This document shows positions 382 through 12,502 of a DNA stretch of 24,583 bases, one piece after another. The translations under genes and the position numbers were made by a program. The DNA is from a virus: the IMG/VR virus record IMGVR_UViG_3300026521_000314, positions 1 to 24,583 of that record; one strand, given 5' to 3'. Under the pieces are notes generated by a model. It did not search any database, was not told the DNA's origin, and worked only from the letters and a program-made list of their open reading frames with translations. The number at the start of each line of letters is the position of its first letter. Within the stretch, counting starts at the first letter, position 1.

Positions 382-730
382 CGATGTGTTCAATCTAAGT
401 TCGTTACACTTAAATCTGAGCTTTTAACTCAACTCTGTATCTCTACAGATGTCCAGACTATATCTTCATCCATATTATATTAATATTAGGATGCCCACCA
501 CTTCCAAGCACTTGCTTGTACTTCCTCTCGGAATAGTCGTTGAACCTTTTCCTTATCTATGACTTAGGAACTTGGCTGCTGATTGTCTTTACCTTATATT
601 TTTCGAACATTCATATAGTGATTTCTCCTATATTGTAGTATATAAGTATTATCCAGATGTCCCAGCAATTCAATGGGTTTCTTCAATGAGAACTATCATA
701 TATTACTATATGACGAGACCTTAATTTTTA
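382..730 (-). ncRNA. ORF-less group I intron in DNA polymerase 43B
   Basis: A self-splicing intron of about 349 nt with all four conserved core elements in order on the minus strand: P (AATTGCTGGGA, about 660-670), Q (AATCAGCAGCCAAG, 571-584), R (GTTCAACGACTA, 534-545) and S (GAAGATATAGTC, 456-467). The long R-to-S interval with extra pairings (P7.1/P7.2 type) suggests subgroup IA, as in T4 td/nrdB. The boundary was chosen because the 5' exon then ends in T at 731 (U-G wobble of P1) and the intron ends in G at 382, and because the join gives ATG-AAG-AT/T-TTA-ATT-AAC, i.e. M-K-I-L-I-N, the canonical motif B. No endonuclease ORF lies inside. Confidence 0.92.
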
Positions 731-840
731 ATCTTCATTCCCATTTGATATACATTCCATTTATCTGCTTCTGTAGATAAATTATCTATATTATCATCTA
801 TCTCGTTTAATCTTTTTTGTATTTCTTCTTGTCTTGTCAT
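731..840 (-). CDS. 43: DNA polymerase gp43B, 5' exon (start of second polymerase cistron)
   Basis: Begins with ATG at 840, preceded by AAAGGAAAATAA, the same ribosome-binding arrangement as the helicase gene. The 36 codons are helical and charged (TRQEEIQKRLNEIDD...) and end K-W-N-V-Y-Q-M-G-M-K-I, which is the fingers helix leading into motif B of family B polymerases. Without splicing the frame reads K-I-K-N-stop at 721. With removal of the group I intron (382-730) it continues as L-I-N-S-A-Y-G. The own RBS and start codon mean the polymerase is made as two polypeptides, 43A and 43B, divided at the tip of the fingers. The gene starts 26 nt after the HNH endonuclease stop. Confidence 0.88.
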
Positions 841-866
841 TTATTTTCCTTTGTATATTATAACAT

Positions 867-1667
867 TTAATTAGTTAATTTAACGTAATAACCTATATAT
901 TCTTTTTTGGTTATCCTAAATCTATATCTTTCATTGCAACCTAATGGTTTTTCCTTACTTGTATGCTCTAGTGCTTTATATATTTTCCTAATTTCCACTG
1001 CCGGAAAATTGCCAACCAAGTTATCCTCACTATCAAATAAATCATACCACTTGCCTTTTTTCCTGGCACTCTCTCCTCTTTTTATTTGTCTTAGTTGCAT
1101 TTTACTGATTTCCTTTCCTTCATACATCACTTTCTCATTTTTCAATGTATTATTGGTTTTCTTACCTATTTCCTTAGCTTTGGTTGTCACTATGCCATCT
1201 ATCACAATCTCCTTATTAATCTCGTTTGAGAAGTTTCTCATATTATACTCAGATTGTTTCATTTTTTTGCCATCTACTTCAATTATATTATTCATGTATT
1301 CAGAGTGCATTTTTGATGCCTGTTCTTTTAATATGGCATATAGATTACTATCAGTAATCTCACCAAATCTATTTTTATTCCTAGTTGCTTCTAATGATTT
1401 GAATACCTTATAATCTTTTATGGCCAAACAAAGCAGTTCATGTGATTCATAGTGTTCTTGATATGATAAAAATACTCCATTCCAACTATATTTCCTTAAG
1501 TTCTTATACTCAGGAAATATACTTTTTGGCAATATATGATGATGTTCTGTCTCGAATTTAGTGTGTTTTTGTTTATTATTTTTCTGACAAAACTCTATAT
1601 AATCCTGCAACTTCTGTTTATCGATAATATTTAAGTCCTTTTCTAGGAATATTTTTAATATGTCCAT
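867..1667 (-). CDS. Free-standing HNH homing endonuclease between 43A and 43B
   Basis: A 266-aa protein with a phage-type HNH nuclease domain near the N-terminus: H-H-H-I-L-P-K-S at residues 42-49, Asn63, then the E-H-x3-H pattern (residues 71-76). The C-terminal half is basic with short repeated elements, probably DNA-binding modules. It has a strong RBS (GGGGAGG) ahead of ATG 1667 and a TATAAATA late promoter at 1691-1698. It lies exactly between the two polymerase cistrons. Split gene 43 with a free-standing endonuclease at the break is known from T4-related Aeromonas phages (a MobE-type gene). There is no intron core between 43A and this gene or between it and 43B, so it is free-standing. 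Confidence 0.88.
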   Translation of the reverse strand: MDILKIFLEKDLNIIDKQKLQDYIEFCQKNNKQKHTKFETEHHHILPKSIFPEYKNLRKYSWNGVFLSYQEHYESHELLCLAIKDYKVFKSLEATRNKNRFGEITDSNLYAILKEQASKMHSEYMNNIIEVDGKKMKQSEYNMRNFSNEINKEIVIDGIVTTKAKEIGKKTNNTLKNEKVMYEGKEISKMQLRQIKRGESARKKGKWYDLFDSEDNLVGNFPAVEIRKIYKALEHTSKEKPLGCNERYRFRITKKEYIGYYVKLTN

Positions 1668-1690
1668 ATCCTGACCTCCCCTTTTAGTAT

Positions 1691-1698
1691 TATTTATA
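1691..1698 (-). promoter_or_regulatory. T4-type late promoter for HNH endonuclease
   Basis: Exact TATAAATA on the minus strand, 23 nt upstream of the endonuclease ATG, in the short gap after the 43A stop codon. It would give the endonuclease its own late transcript. Confidence 0.7.
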
Positions 1699-1736: not shown

Positions 1737-3617
1737 TTATGAGAGTTCAGACAATTCCTTTTTGAGTAATTCAGACTCTTTTTTGAGTTCCTCGATTTCC
1801 TTATAGCATTCTTTCATTAATTTTTTATATTTTTTACGCTTAACCATGATGTCTTCCATTGTTTGTGAAAGGACACTCCTAACATCCTTCCTGAAGAACA
1901 TTCCGTTTGGTGACATTGATACATTGTACTTTTTGCACACTCTCATAACCTCTGAGCTTGCCTCGGTGTTATTGATAACATGCTCTTGAAACCAGAAATC
2001 GTATTTAATGAGTTCCTTAGGTTCAACATTTCTAGGATAGAAAATTGCATATTTTGCTCTCAGTAGCAGAAGTTCATCAGGTAAATTTCTAGGCTCAATG
2101 AGTGTCTCAATGCCAATGTTTAACCACTGAATGACTGAAGGATACAGTGAAGCAAAATCCAGTGAATATACCCATTTCCAGAATTTTGCTGTTCCTTTCG
2201 TGATACCTCCAGGAAATGTCTGTGATGTCAATTTATTTTCATGGTCATTTGCCGCTATAAGGTCCATGTAAAATTTCACTCTGTCGTTACCTCCAACATC
2301 TATGAGGCTCCTAAAATTTTCGTCATTTTCGATTCTGTTCAATAAAACCGAGTCTGTATCGGCAAATTTGCCTTCAAGCGGTAAAACTTGAGAATTTTTG
2401 TAATGATTGTTAAACATGTAGCTGTTCCATTGTGCTAGTGTCCCTCTGATCATATCCATCGTTACACCTGTTTCATATGAAATCATTTTTGCTAGGTCAA
2501 TAAGTTTCAGTTTTTTGTCCAATCCGATAAGCAATTCGACATCCTTAATGCCGTACTCAATGAATGTCTCAAAATTGTTAGCGTAAAATTCAGCAAAATC
2601 TGCATGTTCGTCATGCTCCACTTTATTTTGACCGAGTTCATATCCTGCCACTGTATCCAGGCTGTATGAGGTGTGGGTCGTGTATGTATATTTTTTATAC
2701 ATCTGCATATAATCTTCTTGGATTATACCAACCCATAGAAATTCATCTTGAACACCATATGTTGTATTAACCTCTTTATGCTTGATAAGGTTTGCGTGTG
2801 GTGATAATTGCTTAACATATTCTCCATTAAGGCAGTCAGTATCAAATCTCCATCTTGCTTTTTCTTTGTCATAATAATAAAGTTCATCCCTTTTGTCAAG
2901 GACTCGTATAATTCTGTTAGTGATATAAGGATCATCATATGTTTTTGTGTTCCATCCTGTCATTACTGAAGGGTCCCTCTTTTTGAGAAGTTCTAAGAAA
3001 ACTTTTAATAATTTTTCTTCGGTTTCACAATTTATATATTTTATAGCGCCATATTCAGATTCATATTTGTTTTTGTTCTTCCACTCTTTATTAAGTCCTA
3101 AAATAAAAAAAATATTTGCCTTAGAATCAAAAATCTGTATTGATGTAATCGATGCCATTGCTGCTCTGTCATGACCCATTGGTTTCCAGTCATTTTTGCA
3201 TTCTATGTTTTTGTTAGGAAGCATATTTTCGTCTAATGACGCTGTTTCTATGTCGAAGTACCATGTATTACTAAATTCATGAAAGGCATCGATTGGGTTA
3301 GGCCAATATTTTCTGATATATGTTTGCTCTTGAGATTTATTTCCGTAAGTGCTAATGTTTGAACTTTTGTATAGATTTACTGCATCCCTATATTCTTTCA
3401 TAGTTTTGAATGTCAGCTCTTTCACTGACTGATTTTCAGGTACAGATTTTAATGTAGAATTTCCATTTTTATCATGAACAAAAATGCTTGGTATCACTTT
3501 TATTGATTCTGTAAAACATTCTTTGGTTTGAGGGTCGTAGAGTCTTGCGTATAAGGAACCATTATTTCCTTTGAAGACATTCTCGTATTGTAGATTTCGT
3601 GTATTTGGGTTTGTCAT
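1737..3617 (-). CDS. 43: DNA polymerase gp43A (exonuclease domain, palm part 1, fingers part 1)
   Basis: The N-terminal 626 aa of the T4-type family B replicative polymerase. The 3'-5' proofreading motifs are intact: Exo I F-D-I-E (121-124), Exo II G-W-N-T-K-T-Y-D-D-P (221-230) and Exo III Y-G-I-K-D (355-359). Palm motif A is D-F-A-S-L-Y-P-S (487-494), followed by S-P-N-G (569-572). The protein ends in a long charged helix (from about 590) that is the ascending fingers helix, then stops at TAA 1737. Motifs B and C are missing here and are supplied by 43B, so 43A alone cannot polymerise. ATG 3617 has a good RBS (AAAAGGAAAATA). A TTAAGTAA-N8-TATAAT promoter lies about 90 nt upstream with a hairpin in the leader. 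Confidence 0.96.
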   Translation of the reverse strand: MTNPNTRNLQYENVFKGNNGSLYARLYDPQTKECFTESIKVIPSIFVHDKNGNSTLKSVPENQSVKELTFKTMKEYRDAVNLYKSSNISTYGNKSQEQTYIRKYWPNPIDAFHEFSNTWYFDIETASLDENMLPNKNIECKNDWKPMGHDRAAMASITSIQIFDSKANIFFILGLNKEWKNKNKYESEYGAIKYINCETEEKLLKVFLELLKKRDPSVMTGWNTKTYDDPYITNRIIRVLDKRDELYYYDKEKARWRFDTDCLNGEYVKQLSPHANLIKHKEVNTTYGVQDEFLWVGIIQEDYMQMYKKYTYTTHTSYSLDTVAGYELGQNKVEHDEHADFAEFYANNFETFIEYGIKDVELLIGLDKKLKLIDLAKMISYETGVTMDMIRGTLAQWNSYMFNNHYKNSQVLPLEGKFADTDSVLLNRIENDENFRSLIDVGGNDRVKFYMDLIAANDHENKLTSQTFPGGITKGTAKFWKWVYSLDFASLYPSVIQWLNIGIETLIEPRNLPDELLLLRAKYAIFYPRNVEPKELIKYDFWFQEHVINNTEASSEVMRVCKKYNVSMSPNGMFFRKDVRSVLSQTMEDIMVKRKKYKKLMKECYKEIEELKKESELLKKELSELS

Positions 3618-3705: not shown

Positions 3706-3727
3706 ATTATAACTAATTTTTACTTAA
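3706..3727 (-). promoter_or_regulatory. Middle/early promoter module for 43A
   Basis: Minus strand TTAAGTAA (3727-3720), 8-nt spacer, TATAAT (3711-3706). The TAA stop of the helicase gene is part of the TTAAGTAA box. One of eight copies with identical spacing in this window. Confidence 0.75.
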
Positions 3728-5109
3728 AATTGCAATTGACCAAAGTCAAAGTCATTTTTATCTGGTTGCACCGGTGCCCCAGTGTTCAATTCCTCTTGGT
3801 CCACTGCATCATATGAATTTCCATCATCGAAAGGTTTGTATTGCATTCTATCAAAATGTGTTTCCATCATCAATGAAGGCATCTGCCCAGTATAACGATT
3901 TTTTACGAGTTTCCATATTTGCTGGTTCTGCTCTCTCATTTGCTCGTTGTTGATAAGCATGATCGCAACATCGGCAGTCATTGCAATTTTCAGAGATTCT
4001 GAAATATTTTCCATTCCAGCATCCGTATTTCCCATAGCTGAACGATTAGCCTGAGATGACGATATCATCATAATGCCTTTGTTCCCTTTTGAATCGTATG
4101 TCTCCTTGGCAATGGCGTGAAGGTCTTCGGCAACCTTACCTAAACCGTCATACGAATTTGAATCTTTCGATGCCCTAGCAGACACCATCAGACCTACATA
4201 ATCCACTGCAATAGCATCAGGAATAAAATTTTTCTTGGATTTTAATTCGTCAAGCAAAGCCTTCAGGTGCATTGTGTTGAATGTACCAGCACCATATTCC
4301 TTGATAACCAATTCGCCAATATTGTCTTTGACGCTATCCCATTTTGTCATTAAATCTCGCTCTGACAATTCTGAAAGTTCGTTGATTGTCGTTCCCATAA
4401 TGTTAGCATCAATCCTTTTTGCAATTTCCTTCTCTGGCATTTCGAGTGTTATGAAAAGGACATTTTTCTTTTTCAGGAGTAAATTTGCTGATACGAAAAC
4501 CTTCGCTGCTGTTTTCCCTGTATGTGTTGGTCCAATGAACATAAACAGTGAACCAGGTCGGATTCCTCCACCTAGGACCTTGTCAAGGTTTGACAATCCT
4601 GTTGAGGTGTATGCTTCCCTGCTTTTGTAATACTCCAGCCTTTCCTCGATGCTCTCTCCATAATCAAGGCCAATGCTAGTGTCGAAATTGATATTCAATG
4701 AATCCTCTACCATTCCTGGAATTGGGTCGAATGAGCCATCATTCTGAATGATGTCTGCTGCTTCAAAAATTGTTTTTGAAAGTTTTATCCTTTGAACCCA
4801 TGTCTGTGTTTTGTCTATCAAAAAATCCATATTTTGCACTGGAGGTTCTCTGAGAACATCCTTGAATTTGCTTATCGTAGTTGATTGTAGTGTTTTGTTT
4901 AATGACAAATCTTGCTTAATGGCCAAACCGACCTCTTGAGGTGAAGGTCTTTTGTTATATTTGTTCGTTAAATCTTGGATTGTTTCAAAAATTACGCTAT
5001 TGTTTGGATTTTGAAACAGTCCTTTATCAAGATGACTATATGTCTTTGAATAATATGCATCACTATTCATCAAATTTTGTAAAACTAAATCCTCTATTGT
5101 TTCATTCAT
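3724..5109 (-). CDS. 41: Replicative DNA helicase gp41 (DnaB/RecA fold)
   Basis: A 461-aa hexameric replicative helicase of the DnaB superfamily 4, which unwinds DNA ahead of the polymerase. An N-terminal helical domain (to about 110) is followed by the RecA-like motor: Walker A G-P-T-H-T-G-K-T (193-200), Walker B ending in A-V-D-Y-V-G-L-M (301-308), and a sensor stretch I-S-S-S-Q-A-N-R typical of DnaB motif H3. Length is close to T4 gp41. It has a clear RBS (AAGGAAAATAA) before ATG 5109 and its own promoter module overlapping the stop of the upstream endonuclease gene. It lies immediately upstream of 43A. No primase (gp61) is next to it in this window. Confidence 0.93.
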   Translation of the reverse strand: MNETIEDLVLQNLMNSDAYYSKTYSHLDKGLFQNPNNSVIFETIQDLTNKYNKRPSPQEVGLAIKQDLSLNKTLQSTTISKFKDVLREPPVQNMDFLIDKTQTWVQRIKLSKTIFEAADIIQNDGSFDPIPGMVEDSLNINFDTSIGLDYGESIEERLEYYKSREAYTSTGLSNLDKVLGGGIRPGSLFMFIGPTHTGKTAAKVFVSANLLLKKKNVLFITLEMPEKEIAKRIDANIMGTTINELSELSERDLMTKWDSVKDNIGELVIKEYGAGTFNTMHLKALLDELKSKKNFIPDAIAVDYVGLMVSARASKDSNSYDGLGKVAEDLHAIAKETYDSKGNKGIMMISSSQANRSAMGNTDAGMENISESLKIAMTADVAIMLINNEQMREQNQQIWKLVKNRYTGQMPSLMMETHFDRMQYKPFDDGNSYDAVDQEELNTGAPVQPDKNDFDFGQLQF

Positions 5110-5166
5110 TTATTTTCCTTAATTTTTGGTCCCATAAGTTTTCTATCTGTTTGGTTGGATAAGTAA

Positions 5167-5995: not shown

Positions 5996-6022
5996 AAGAA
6001 TAATCCTCCTATAATTAATATT

Positions 6023-6110
6023 ATAAGAGTGAAGTGTTGACGGACTTCACGTTAAATGTATATAGAGGAAGTCCGTCAAGAGCCCTATATACACATTTAA
6101 CATCTCTTAT
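6023..6110 (-). promoter_or_regulatory. Pseudoknot-capable structured leader RNA of the GIY-YIG gene
   Basis: On the minus strand, an outer 7-bp stem ATAAGAG/CTCTTAT (6110-6104 with 6029-6023) closes two crossing helices. Stem 1 pairs 6101-6085 with 6065-6051 (15 bp, 2-nt bulge). Its 19-nt loop contains TTGACGGACTTC (6079-6068), which is complementary over 12 bp to GAAGTCCGTCAA (6048-6037), lying 2 nt after stem 1: H-type pseudoknot geometry. A competing hairpin GTGAAGT/ACTTCAC (6050-6044 with 6035-6029) would sequester the same 3' strand, so the region may switch between folds. Function is unknown. Confidence 0.7.
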
Positions 6111-6115
6111 GTTAT

Positions 6116-6123
6116 TATTTATA
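6116..6123 (-). promoter_or_regulatory. T4-type late promoter for GIY-YIG gene leader
   Basis: TATAAATA on the minus strand, immediately upstream of the structured leader. A late start near 6110 would include the entire fold in the transcript. Confidence 0.65.
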
Positions 6124-6161
6124 AGTTTCTAAATCGTTATTCATTGATAAGTTTCGTTCAT

Positions 6162-7139
6162 TTATTTTCCTCCTAAAATGTCTAACTCTTCATCTGCCAC
6201 TGTCAATAGAAATTTACCAAATTCTACCTGAGCATGTGCTGAAGCATCGATTAACATTGAACCGAAAGCCTCGTTATGTCCTCCTGCTGATTGAACATTT
6301 GGATTTTCTAACAGCCGTTTTACGATAGCATTTTTTAGAACACCATCGTCACTCAAACCTCTCCTGAGCCTTACCGAAACACCGCCATAGCTTGAAATTA
6401 ATATATAGATGCCATATCCAGGATAATCTAATGGAATATGATTCTTAAAATCGTCTATGAACATCATCAAAATTCGTTTATTTCCTTCTGGTTCGTGCCT
6501 AAATATCCTGCCTGCTTTGTCTAATTTTTCAAAAAGTTTTGTTTTTTTCTTCATTAAATCTCTGAACCTTTCTTTATCAGAATTTCTAAGTTTATAATCA
6601 TCCTTGAACCTTGAAAAATAATAATCTTTTTTAAATTCCCAAAATAATTCATTATACACCATTGCAGCCTTGAACATTTTGTCGTCTTTTTTCCAAAGGT
6701 CGTAAACATCAACATAATCAACATATTCGGCAAGAGGTTTCATCATTTTAGGGTCTAAAATTTTTGAATTATTTTTCAGATACAAAAATGTAAGTTTGGT
6801 TGCCGAAGCCTTAGGACTAATAAGGAGCATCAGGTTTGGTGCTTTAATGTGTGAATAATCCTCATCGAATGGGTGATGGTCGATAAAATAAAAATTTATT
6901 TCAGGAAATCGTTTCACTGTTTCAAAAAATGTCTCAAGGTATTGCAATGTGAACGACAAATCCGTAACCCAAACTTCTGAAGGTTTGCTATGTCCACAAT
7001 ATTCATCGATTATTGCTAGATATTCCTCAATTTTTCCGTAGCTAAGGTTCATCCTTTGAACCTCTCCTTTAAATTGCCTAATGACAATTTGTGCCGAGAC
7101 ACCGTCTAGGTCTGTGTGTGACACTGCTAATTTGCTCAT
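6162..7139 (-). CDS. DHH/DHHA1 family phosphoesterase (nuclease-like)
   Basis: A 325-aa metal-dependent phosphoesterase of the DHH superfamily (RecJ, NrnA/oligoribonuclease, c-di-AMP phosphodiesterases). Metal ligands are visible: H-T-D-L-D-G (8-13), Asp60 in V-T-D-L, and D-H-H (87-89). The C-terminal DHHA1 substrate-binding motif appears as G-G-H-N-E-A-F-G (286-293). The size fits a stand-alone nanoRNase or phosphodiesterase rather than full RecJ. The start overlaps the stop of the upstream gp62-like gene (ATGA), indicating translational coupling. A role in recycling short oligonucleotides during phage DNA synthesis, or in degrading a cyclic nucleotide signal, is possible; the sequence does not decide. 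Confidence 0.85.
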   Translation of the reverse strand: MSKLAVSHTDLDGVSAQIVIRQFKGEVQRMNLSYGKIEEYLAIIDEYCGHSKPSEVWVTDLSFTLQYLETFFETVKRFPEINFYFIDHHPFDEDYSHIKAPNLMLLISPKASATKLTFLYLKNNSKILDPKMMKPLAEYVDYVDVYDLWKKDDKMFKAAMVYNELFWEFKKDYYFSRFKDDYKLRNSDKERFRDLMKKKTKLFEKLDKAGRIFRHEPEGNKRILMMFIDDFKNHIPLDYPGYGIYILISSYGGVSVRLRRGLSDDGVLKNAIVKRLLENPNVQSAGGHNEAFGSMLIDASAHAQVEFGKFLLTVADEELDILGGK

Positions 7140-8092: not shown

Positions 8093-8155
8093 ACAATAAA
8101 AATAATCAGAATAATTAAATTAAATTTTCTTTATTTTTTATCTCTATAATATGAC

Positions 8156-8178
8156 ATAAGAGGAATAAATCCTCTTAT
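8156..8178. terminator. Hairpin between convergent genes (bidirectional terminator candidate)
   Basis: Perfect 9-bp stem ATAAGAGGA/TCCTCTTAT with 5-nt loop, followed by TTT on the plus strand. It lies between the converging gp62-like copy 2 and the HU gene. A TATAAT directly precedes it on the plus strand (8145-8150), giving the same promoter-hairpin layout as at 3677. Confidence 0.6.
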
Positions 8179-8204
8179 TTTGGAATAGGTTAAACCTTAG
8201 TTCC

Positions 8205-12464: not shown

Positions 12465-12476
12465 TATTTATAAATA
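12465..12476 (-). promoter_or_regulatory. Palindromic late promoter (TATTTATAAATA)
   Basis: Contains TATAAATA on both strands (minus 12472-12465, plus 12469-12476). The minus orientation serves the capsid-targeted/spanin gene cluster. The plus orientation reads into the 12480 hairpin and then antisense to the holin-like gene. Confidence 0.68.
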
Positions 12477-12479
12477 ATA

Positions 12480-12502
12480 ACATAAGAGGTTTTCTCTTAT
12501 GT
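12480..12502 (-). terminator. Hairpin, terminator candidate
   Basis: 9-bp stem ACATAAGAG/CTCTTATGT with a 5-nt loop, followed on the minus strand by the T-rich TATTATTTATAAA that is also the late promoter. It could end the holin-like transcript. Confidence 0.55.

Follow-up and report, generated by a model that had tools for sequence, protein, structure and literature searches.

Structured leaders with two crossing, covarying helices probably control the translation of free-standing homing endonuclease genes in uncultivated T4-like phages

We analyzed a window of 24,583 nucleotides (IMG/VR virus record IMGVR_UViG_3300026521_000314, positions 1 to 24,583), a contig from a T4-like phage in which the minus strand carries nearly all genes. 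A free-standing homing endonuclease gene is placed between its DHH-type gene and its helicase gene (Table 1), and the N-terminus of the encoded protein appears to be GIY-YIG-like, as deduced from its relatives. Late promoter boxes of the sequence TATAAATA occur 11 times in the window against 4 expected. The start of the gp41-type gene (Shine-Dalgarno sequence, ATG and first codons) is duplicated, with the two copies at 6132-6160 (-) and 5109-5130 (-) and a 6-codon mini-ORF left behind, and the degenerate copy, AGGAAAATAAATGAACGAAAC, lies immediately upstream of the late promoter; this duplication upstream of the endonuclease cassette is likely the footprint of an insertion. Upon comparison with related loci, we observe that in L084 the DHH gene is followed directly by gp41 with no cassette between them, and that in L087 a DNA methyltransferase-like gene (L087:555-1316) lies between the DHH gene and gp41 in place of the endonuclease, which suggests that this junction is an insertion hot spot. 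The leader described below was not found at the DHH/gp41 junction of L084 and L087, as the endonuclease is absent there, and in L085 a leader and an endonuclease lie on the opposite side of the DHH gene. Elsewhere in the window, a group I intron region (433-1698, minus strand), situated 3' of a truncated DNA polymerase gene, carries an HNH-type endonuclease ORF (867-1667), with a late box TATAAATA at 1698-1691 followed by a short leader that lacks the P0/P1/P2 module.

Table 1. Genes of the locus and parts of the leader, in coordinates of the window.
Feature	Positions	Strand	Remarks
Group I intron (Rfam match)	433-740		single Rfam match in the window
Family B DNA polymerase gene	1737-3617
gp41-type helicase gene	3724-5109
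Free-standing homing endonuclease gene, 271 aa	5180-5995	-	NUMOD3 1.8e-12; phrog_314 homing endonuclease 6e-24
DHH-type gene	6162-7139
Late promoter box, T4-type, TATAAATA	6116-6123	-
P0 5' strand, AUAAGAG	6104-6110	-	predicted 5' end of late RNA
P1 5' arm (A), GUUAAAUGUGUAUAUAG	6085-6101	-
P2 5' arm (B), UUGACGGACUUC	6068-6079	-	preceded by conserved CUCUU (6082-6078)
P1 3' arm (A'), CUAUAUACAUUUAAC	6051-6065	-
P2 3' arm (B'), GAAGUCCGUCAA	6037-6048	-
P3 competing hairpin, GUGAAGU (6050-6044) with ACUUCAC (6035-6029)	6029-6050	-	uses the 5' half of B'
P0 3' strand, CUCUUAU	6023-6029	-	doubles as P4 anti-SD strand
P4 SD-sequestering hairpin, CUCUUAUAA (6029-6021) with UUAUAGGAG (6014-6006)	6006-6029	-	minimum-energy fold of late RNA
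Shine-Dalgarno sequence, AGGAGG	6005-6010	-	5' of endonuclease ATG (5995)

The leader itself spans positions 6110 to 6023 of the minus strand. A first-pass annotation had described a homing endonuclease leader between a late promoter and a ribosome binding site, with a 15-bp helix, a 12-bp pairing of its loop and an enclosing 7-bp stem, and all of these are present on the minus strand, between the late box and the Shine-Dalgarno (SD) sequence. The late box TATAAATA is followed by the 5' strand of P0 and by arm A, after which come GG, CUCUU, B, CU, A', GU and B', and then CACUUCA, CUCUUAUAA, an AU-rich stretch, UUAUAGGAG, which contains the SD, and the AUG. From the spacing in T4, the late-promoter +1 is predicted at about 6110, the first base of P0. 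P0, of 7 bp, encloses P1 and P2. P1 can be drawn as 15 bp interrupted by a 2-nt bulge or, after a shift of register, as 14 bp including one G-U, and P2, of 12 bp, crosses P1 in the covarying arm order A-B-A'-B' in which the P1 loop pairs with the sequence 3' of P1. The element most relevant to function had been missed, namely that the 3' strand of the enclosing stem is predicted to compete with the SD.

Next, we investigated whether this is more structure than expected, as had been claimed. Nested folding of the leader region yields z = -5.95, with 0 of 200 shuffles as stable, and none of 400 dinucleotide shuffles of the complete window contained a P1 x P2 pair as tight as that of the leader, any weaker match of this type arising at 0.015 per shuffle. 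A cruder count of perfect-stem pseudoknots, in which shuffles reach 9 bp, was unconvincing alone and was replaced by the tight-linker shuffle test. Since shuffles came close under the perfect-stem measure, it is the comparative evidence that is decisive.

A structure-only scan of loci picked for an endonuclease or DHH gene returned two further leaders, in L085 and in L050, each of them immediately preceding another endonuclease-like gene. Motif patterns were built from the common features with no pairing required, and the cleanest of them, TATAAATA-N5-9-TAAGAG-N54-84-CTCTTAT, matched 44 stretches in 2.9 million viral contigs, nearly all of which are true elements. With all loci pooled, both crossing helices are found in 49 of 51 distinct candidate cores and, with five later additions (L341, L362, L406 and two in larger contigs), the homologues in uncultivated phage contigs number about 53, or about 54 elements including the window. 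When the promoter was not required by the scan, the exact TATAAATA was still observed in 20 of 22 true elements. The contigs bearing homologues are T4-like where testable, with the T4 gp23 capsid gene in 6 of 19 contigs tested, and between three and five elements occur together on each of several contigs. Additionally, four leaders (L315, L319, L331 and L362) share a conserved core (..AAGACTTC..GG(G)GTCT..) and a P1 that is irregular, and form a sub-type that may be a separate branch of the family.

In bacterial genomes, 29 pattern matches included one true element, on a 4 kb contig binned as Cloacimonadota. A pattern of the exact promoter plus AUAAGAG matched two contigs, both of them coincidental matches in coding sequence. 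Rfam 15 gave no match to the leader region at the gathering threshold and, when E values up to 5 were allowed, no more than four matches of chance level, far under their gathering scores, while BLAST with the consensus leader returned chance matches only. For Aeromonas phage 25 and Campylobacter phage CP30A, a stretch of 50 kb from either phage yielded no matching element, and in five cultured relatives of the endonuclease the intergenic space, as annotated, is too small for the element. The best matches of gp41 in cultured phages, Campylobacter phages included, are of 30-34% identity. We found no paper on the leader family in the open-access collection that was searched.

Upon examining the helices across 49 elements, we found 46 different sequences of the P1 arm and 49 of the P2 arm, with a pairing of 0.93 (P1) and 0.94 (P2) for arms of the same element against 0.52 and 0.55 for swapped arms. 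Ten elements of equal geometry form a gapless alignment, in which 96.4% of the cells pair, a level reached by 0 of 500 shuffles, and pairing falls to 32-40% when partners are slid by 1-3 columns. The first-pass annotation had proposed a search for covarying homologues and had named homologous leaders without compensatory changes as the outcome that would speak against it; the helices covary across many phages and the opposite outcome was obtained, with changes on both sides in 26 of the 28 pairs of the ten-row alignment (18/18 in P1 and 8/10 in P2). Furthermore, G-U pairs outnumber A-C mismatches by 43 to 9 in the sense strand when both are scored as mismatches, which indicates that the sense RNA is under selection. 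These comparisons show that selection maintains P1 and P2 in the sense RNA across leaders that are unrelated.

The remaining helices give weaker signals, P0 and P3 covarying less than P1 and P2. The length of P3 is variable and its mean longest stem is 3.84 for own arms against 2.95 for swapped arms (0 of 2000 permutations), such that the competing hairpin noticed earlier is real. P0 is almost invariant, partly since the search patterns fixed most of it, and its pair 6 is C-G instead of U-A in L177 and L406, two related-looking elements. Sequence conservation is limited to AAGAG, CUCU, CUCUUAUAA and the SD, with CTCT within the P1 loop in 40 of the 49 elements, and is too little for a typical ligand-binding aptamer (riboswitch). 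The U run of an intrinsic terminator was not found after P1, P2 or P3 in the sense strand.

Stems resembling P0 also occur elsewhere in the window. At 12468-12493 (+), 24 of 26 nt are identical to the promoter plus AUAAGAG of the leader in inverted orientation, and they close a short hairpin, AUAAGAG-GUUUU-CUCUUAU, with a second hairpin and a short U run some 20-odd nt on; this could be a bidirectional terminator/promoter, a core-less remnant of a leader or a small RNA. Another AUAAGAG/CUCUUAU hairpin, TATAATATGACATAAGAGGAATAAATCCTCTTATTTT at 8145-8180, lies at the 3' end of an HU-like gene, and the stem may therefore also act as a terminator in this phage.

We next considered the genes behind the leader. 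An ORF of at least 60 aa is found downstream of 44 of the 51 elements, 21-35 nt from P0 where measured, and homing/HNH endonuclease families dominate, with phrog_314 in 21, phrog_655 in 13 and phrog_12434 in 10 members, and DUF7487 matched by three. Nearly all elements lie immediately before an endonuclease of GIY-YIG, HNH or DUF7487-like type, either free-standing or apparently decayed. Short ORFs stand behind 7 of the 51 leaders and look like decayed endonucleases, since several begin like intact ones (MYYTVYK.TN, MKIPQ.K.Y). In about 370 kb of larger contigs, each element is directly 5' of an endonuclease match, and other endonucleases in these contigs are without the leader. Some of the first loci came from an endonuclease search, which may slightly favour the association; the pattern scans ignored protein. 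Leaders and endonucleases reassort, with L313 carrying nearly the leader of the window before a different endonuclease, and L168 carrying an endonuclease whose N-terminal region is 63% identical to that of the window behind leader arms that are unrelated. In ten elements the upstream neighbour is on the opposite strand, and control of read-through is thus not the whole story.

The dimensions of the helices bear on how they can be combined. P1 is nearly perfect and mostly of 16-20 bp (range 14-30; GC 0.22), P2 is mostly of 9-12 bp (range 7-13; GC 0.53), and the linkers between the arms are mostly of 0-3 nt, with L2 being 0 nt in 34 and L3 in 30 of the 49 elements, from which, by helix geometry, P1 and P2 should be unable to form together at full length. 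Of the H-type pseudoknot first described, the pairing of the loop with the 3' sequence stands and the simultaneous presence of both full helices is sterically unlikely; P1 and P2 are probably competing alternative helices rather than a simple stacked pseudoknot, a partial pseudoknot being possible.

The 3' strand of P0 is also predicted to pair with the SD, as P4, in nearly all leaders, with a mean P4 probability of 0.67 in the folding of 49 late leaders, and the predicted layout is that of an anti-SD and an anti-anti-SD. The register of P4 is shifted in some leaders, and in four (L318, L335, L317 and L362) AA replaces the GG of the SD while A-U pairs maintain P4. The comparison of own with swapped strands gave no signal for P4; as the sequences of its two strands are conserved, this control carries no information. 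When the growing late RNA is folded, the probability of P0 is 0.96 as soon as its 3' strand has been transcribed and falls to 0.17 when the SD has been added. The state with P0 and P1 lies a median of 2.0 kcal/mol above the minimum and the best P2 state 4.8 kcal/mol, and P2 forms at 0.92 in folding with the 5' arm A missing. The CUCU of the loop could pair with AAGAG, and P0 would then be unable to form in the P2 state.

Taken together, we estimate a probability of roughly 60% that these elements are a family of cis-acting leaders of the free-standing homing endonuclease genes of uncultivated T4-like phages, controlling endonuclease translation through the SD, and the best reading of their role is low or late endonuclease synthesis. 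In the model that we propose, the anti-SD strand CUCUUAUAA would choose between the 5' end of its own RNA (P0, SD open) and the SD (P4, SD hidden), with P1 and P3 favouring the open state, P2 opposing it, and P3 vying with P2 for B'. RNA from the late promoter would start exactly at the P0 strand, and during its synthesis P1, P3 and P0 would form before the SD exists, such that the SD would emerge open and a few ribosomes would load. The RNA would later relax to P4, possibly with the help of P2, which would shut the site and leave the endonuclease only a brief burst of late synthesis. For read-through RNA that starts at upstream promoters, folding predicts an SD that is mostly paired throughout. 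The late-only opening rests on a kinetic argument, because nested folding predicts equal SD exposure for read-through and late RNA (means of 0.16 and 0.17 over the 49 leaders). The switch suggested in the first-pass annotation is plausible, while its direction, the order of events and any trigger are what we infer, and the part of the model understood least is what P2 does. A more tentative extension is that the leaders are bistable co-transcriptional RNA timers, common to and exchanged among unrelated endonuclease families, that allow brief translation before locking themselves.

Among other explanations, a plain late gate of the T4 type is unlikely, in which a stem of the read-through RNA that includes promoter sequence hides the SD, the late RNA without its 5' arm is freely translated and the core is a spacer. 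This mechanism is documented for I-TevI, with similar ones for segB and Aeh1 mobE (PMC2988022, PMC3014915), and the leaders resemble it in having a late promoter by the 5' arm and, computationally, a sequestered SD in read-through RNA; in the window, the promoter region of the folded read-through RNA pairs up to the SD, and pairing of the SD with upstream sequence averages 0.18 over the 49 leaders and exceeds 0.8 in several. However, equilibrium folding predicts no gain of SD exposure for late RNA (0.17), although a kinetic opening is possible, and the compensatory upkeep of two crossing helices would be left unexplained. We are similarly doubtful of a true pseudoknot scaffold, in which a partial P1 together with P2, possibly with a phage or host protein attached, would close P0 and open the SD, making P2 an ON element. 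The conservation and covariation of P2 would fit this scheme, as would folding with the core swapped for a compact hairpin, which brings P0 up to 0.97 and SD exposure up to 0.49, and the leader pseudoknot of T4 gene 32 is a precedent for binding by a protein, but the mostly 0-3 nt linkers make the coexistence of helices of 16-20 and 9-12 bp unlikely, and the conserved full length of P1 has no explanation if half of it must melt. Less probable still is a role in mRNA stability, with SD pairing secondary, whereby a paired 5' leader with a long hairpin would block 5'-dependent decay or invite RNase III; the start of P0 at the predicted +1 and a nearly perfect P1 of 14-30 bp agree with such a role, which accounts neither for P2 and P3 nor for one strand having the SD as its alternative partner. 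Finally, it is very improbable that these are DNA-level palindromes, serving a binding protein, recombination or homing and only resembling RNA structure, since, although inverted repeats are equally present in DNA and the endonucleases are mobile, G-U pairs exceed A-C mismatches in the sense strand, the arms are almost all different and thus offer no common protein site, and the position is fixed relative to promoter, SD and ATG.

Earlier knowledge of homing endonuclease control in T4-like phages concerned single hairpins at few genes, whereas here about fifty leaders with unusually clear covariation are available. Under the preferred reading of translational control through the SD, they provide a directly testable model for the way in which a selfish gene keeps down the burden that it places on its host phage, and a sequence-independent design for an RNA switch, the arms of which can be rewritten while they match. 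The leader can also be used as a marker for endonuclease genes in phage metagenomes, and with seven leaders outlasting apparently decayed endonuclease ORFs, the endonuclease life cycle becomes traceable.

Several known systems can be compared with this family. In Aeromonas phage 25, seg43(25) has a stable hairpin directly 5' of the endonuclease ribosome binding site (PMC2988022), a placement shared by the present leaders, but its intergenic region is only about 45 nt and it has no P2/P0 module. The autoregulatory leader pseudoknot of T4 gene 32 consists of two coaxially stacked helices separated by loops (PMC3014915). The present leaders share its pseudoknot topology, its setting in a T4-like phage leader and its place upstream of an AU-rich stretch and SD, and differ in the gene concerned and in that their helices, of 14-30 and 7-13 bp, are joined nearly without linkers. 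The MS2 maturation protein is described as being translated only from new RNA, before an inhibitory fold of its leader forms; the logic proposed here is similar, in a sequence and a virus that are unrelated, with a kinetic step that we infer for the present leaders. Also comparable are the leaders of the T4-type homing endonuclease genes I-TevI, I-TevII, I-TevIII, segB and Aeh1 mobE, which are described as single SD-hiding hairpins with a late promoter (PMC2988022, PMC3014915). Like these, the present leaders precede an endonuclease that is a selfish gene in a phage operon, have a late promoter beside or inside the 5' arm and an SD predicted to be paired; unlike those single hairpins, they comprise four or five competing helices with a crossing pair and form a covarying family common to unrelated endonuclease families, and their SD is predicted to be concealed in late RNA as well. 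Overall, the leader family, which is absent from Rfam 15 and from the cultured phages checked, is similar in role to the T4 endonuclease hairpins and structurally new.
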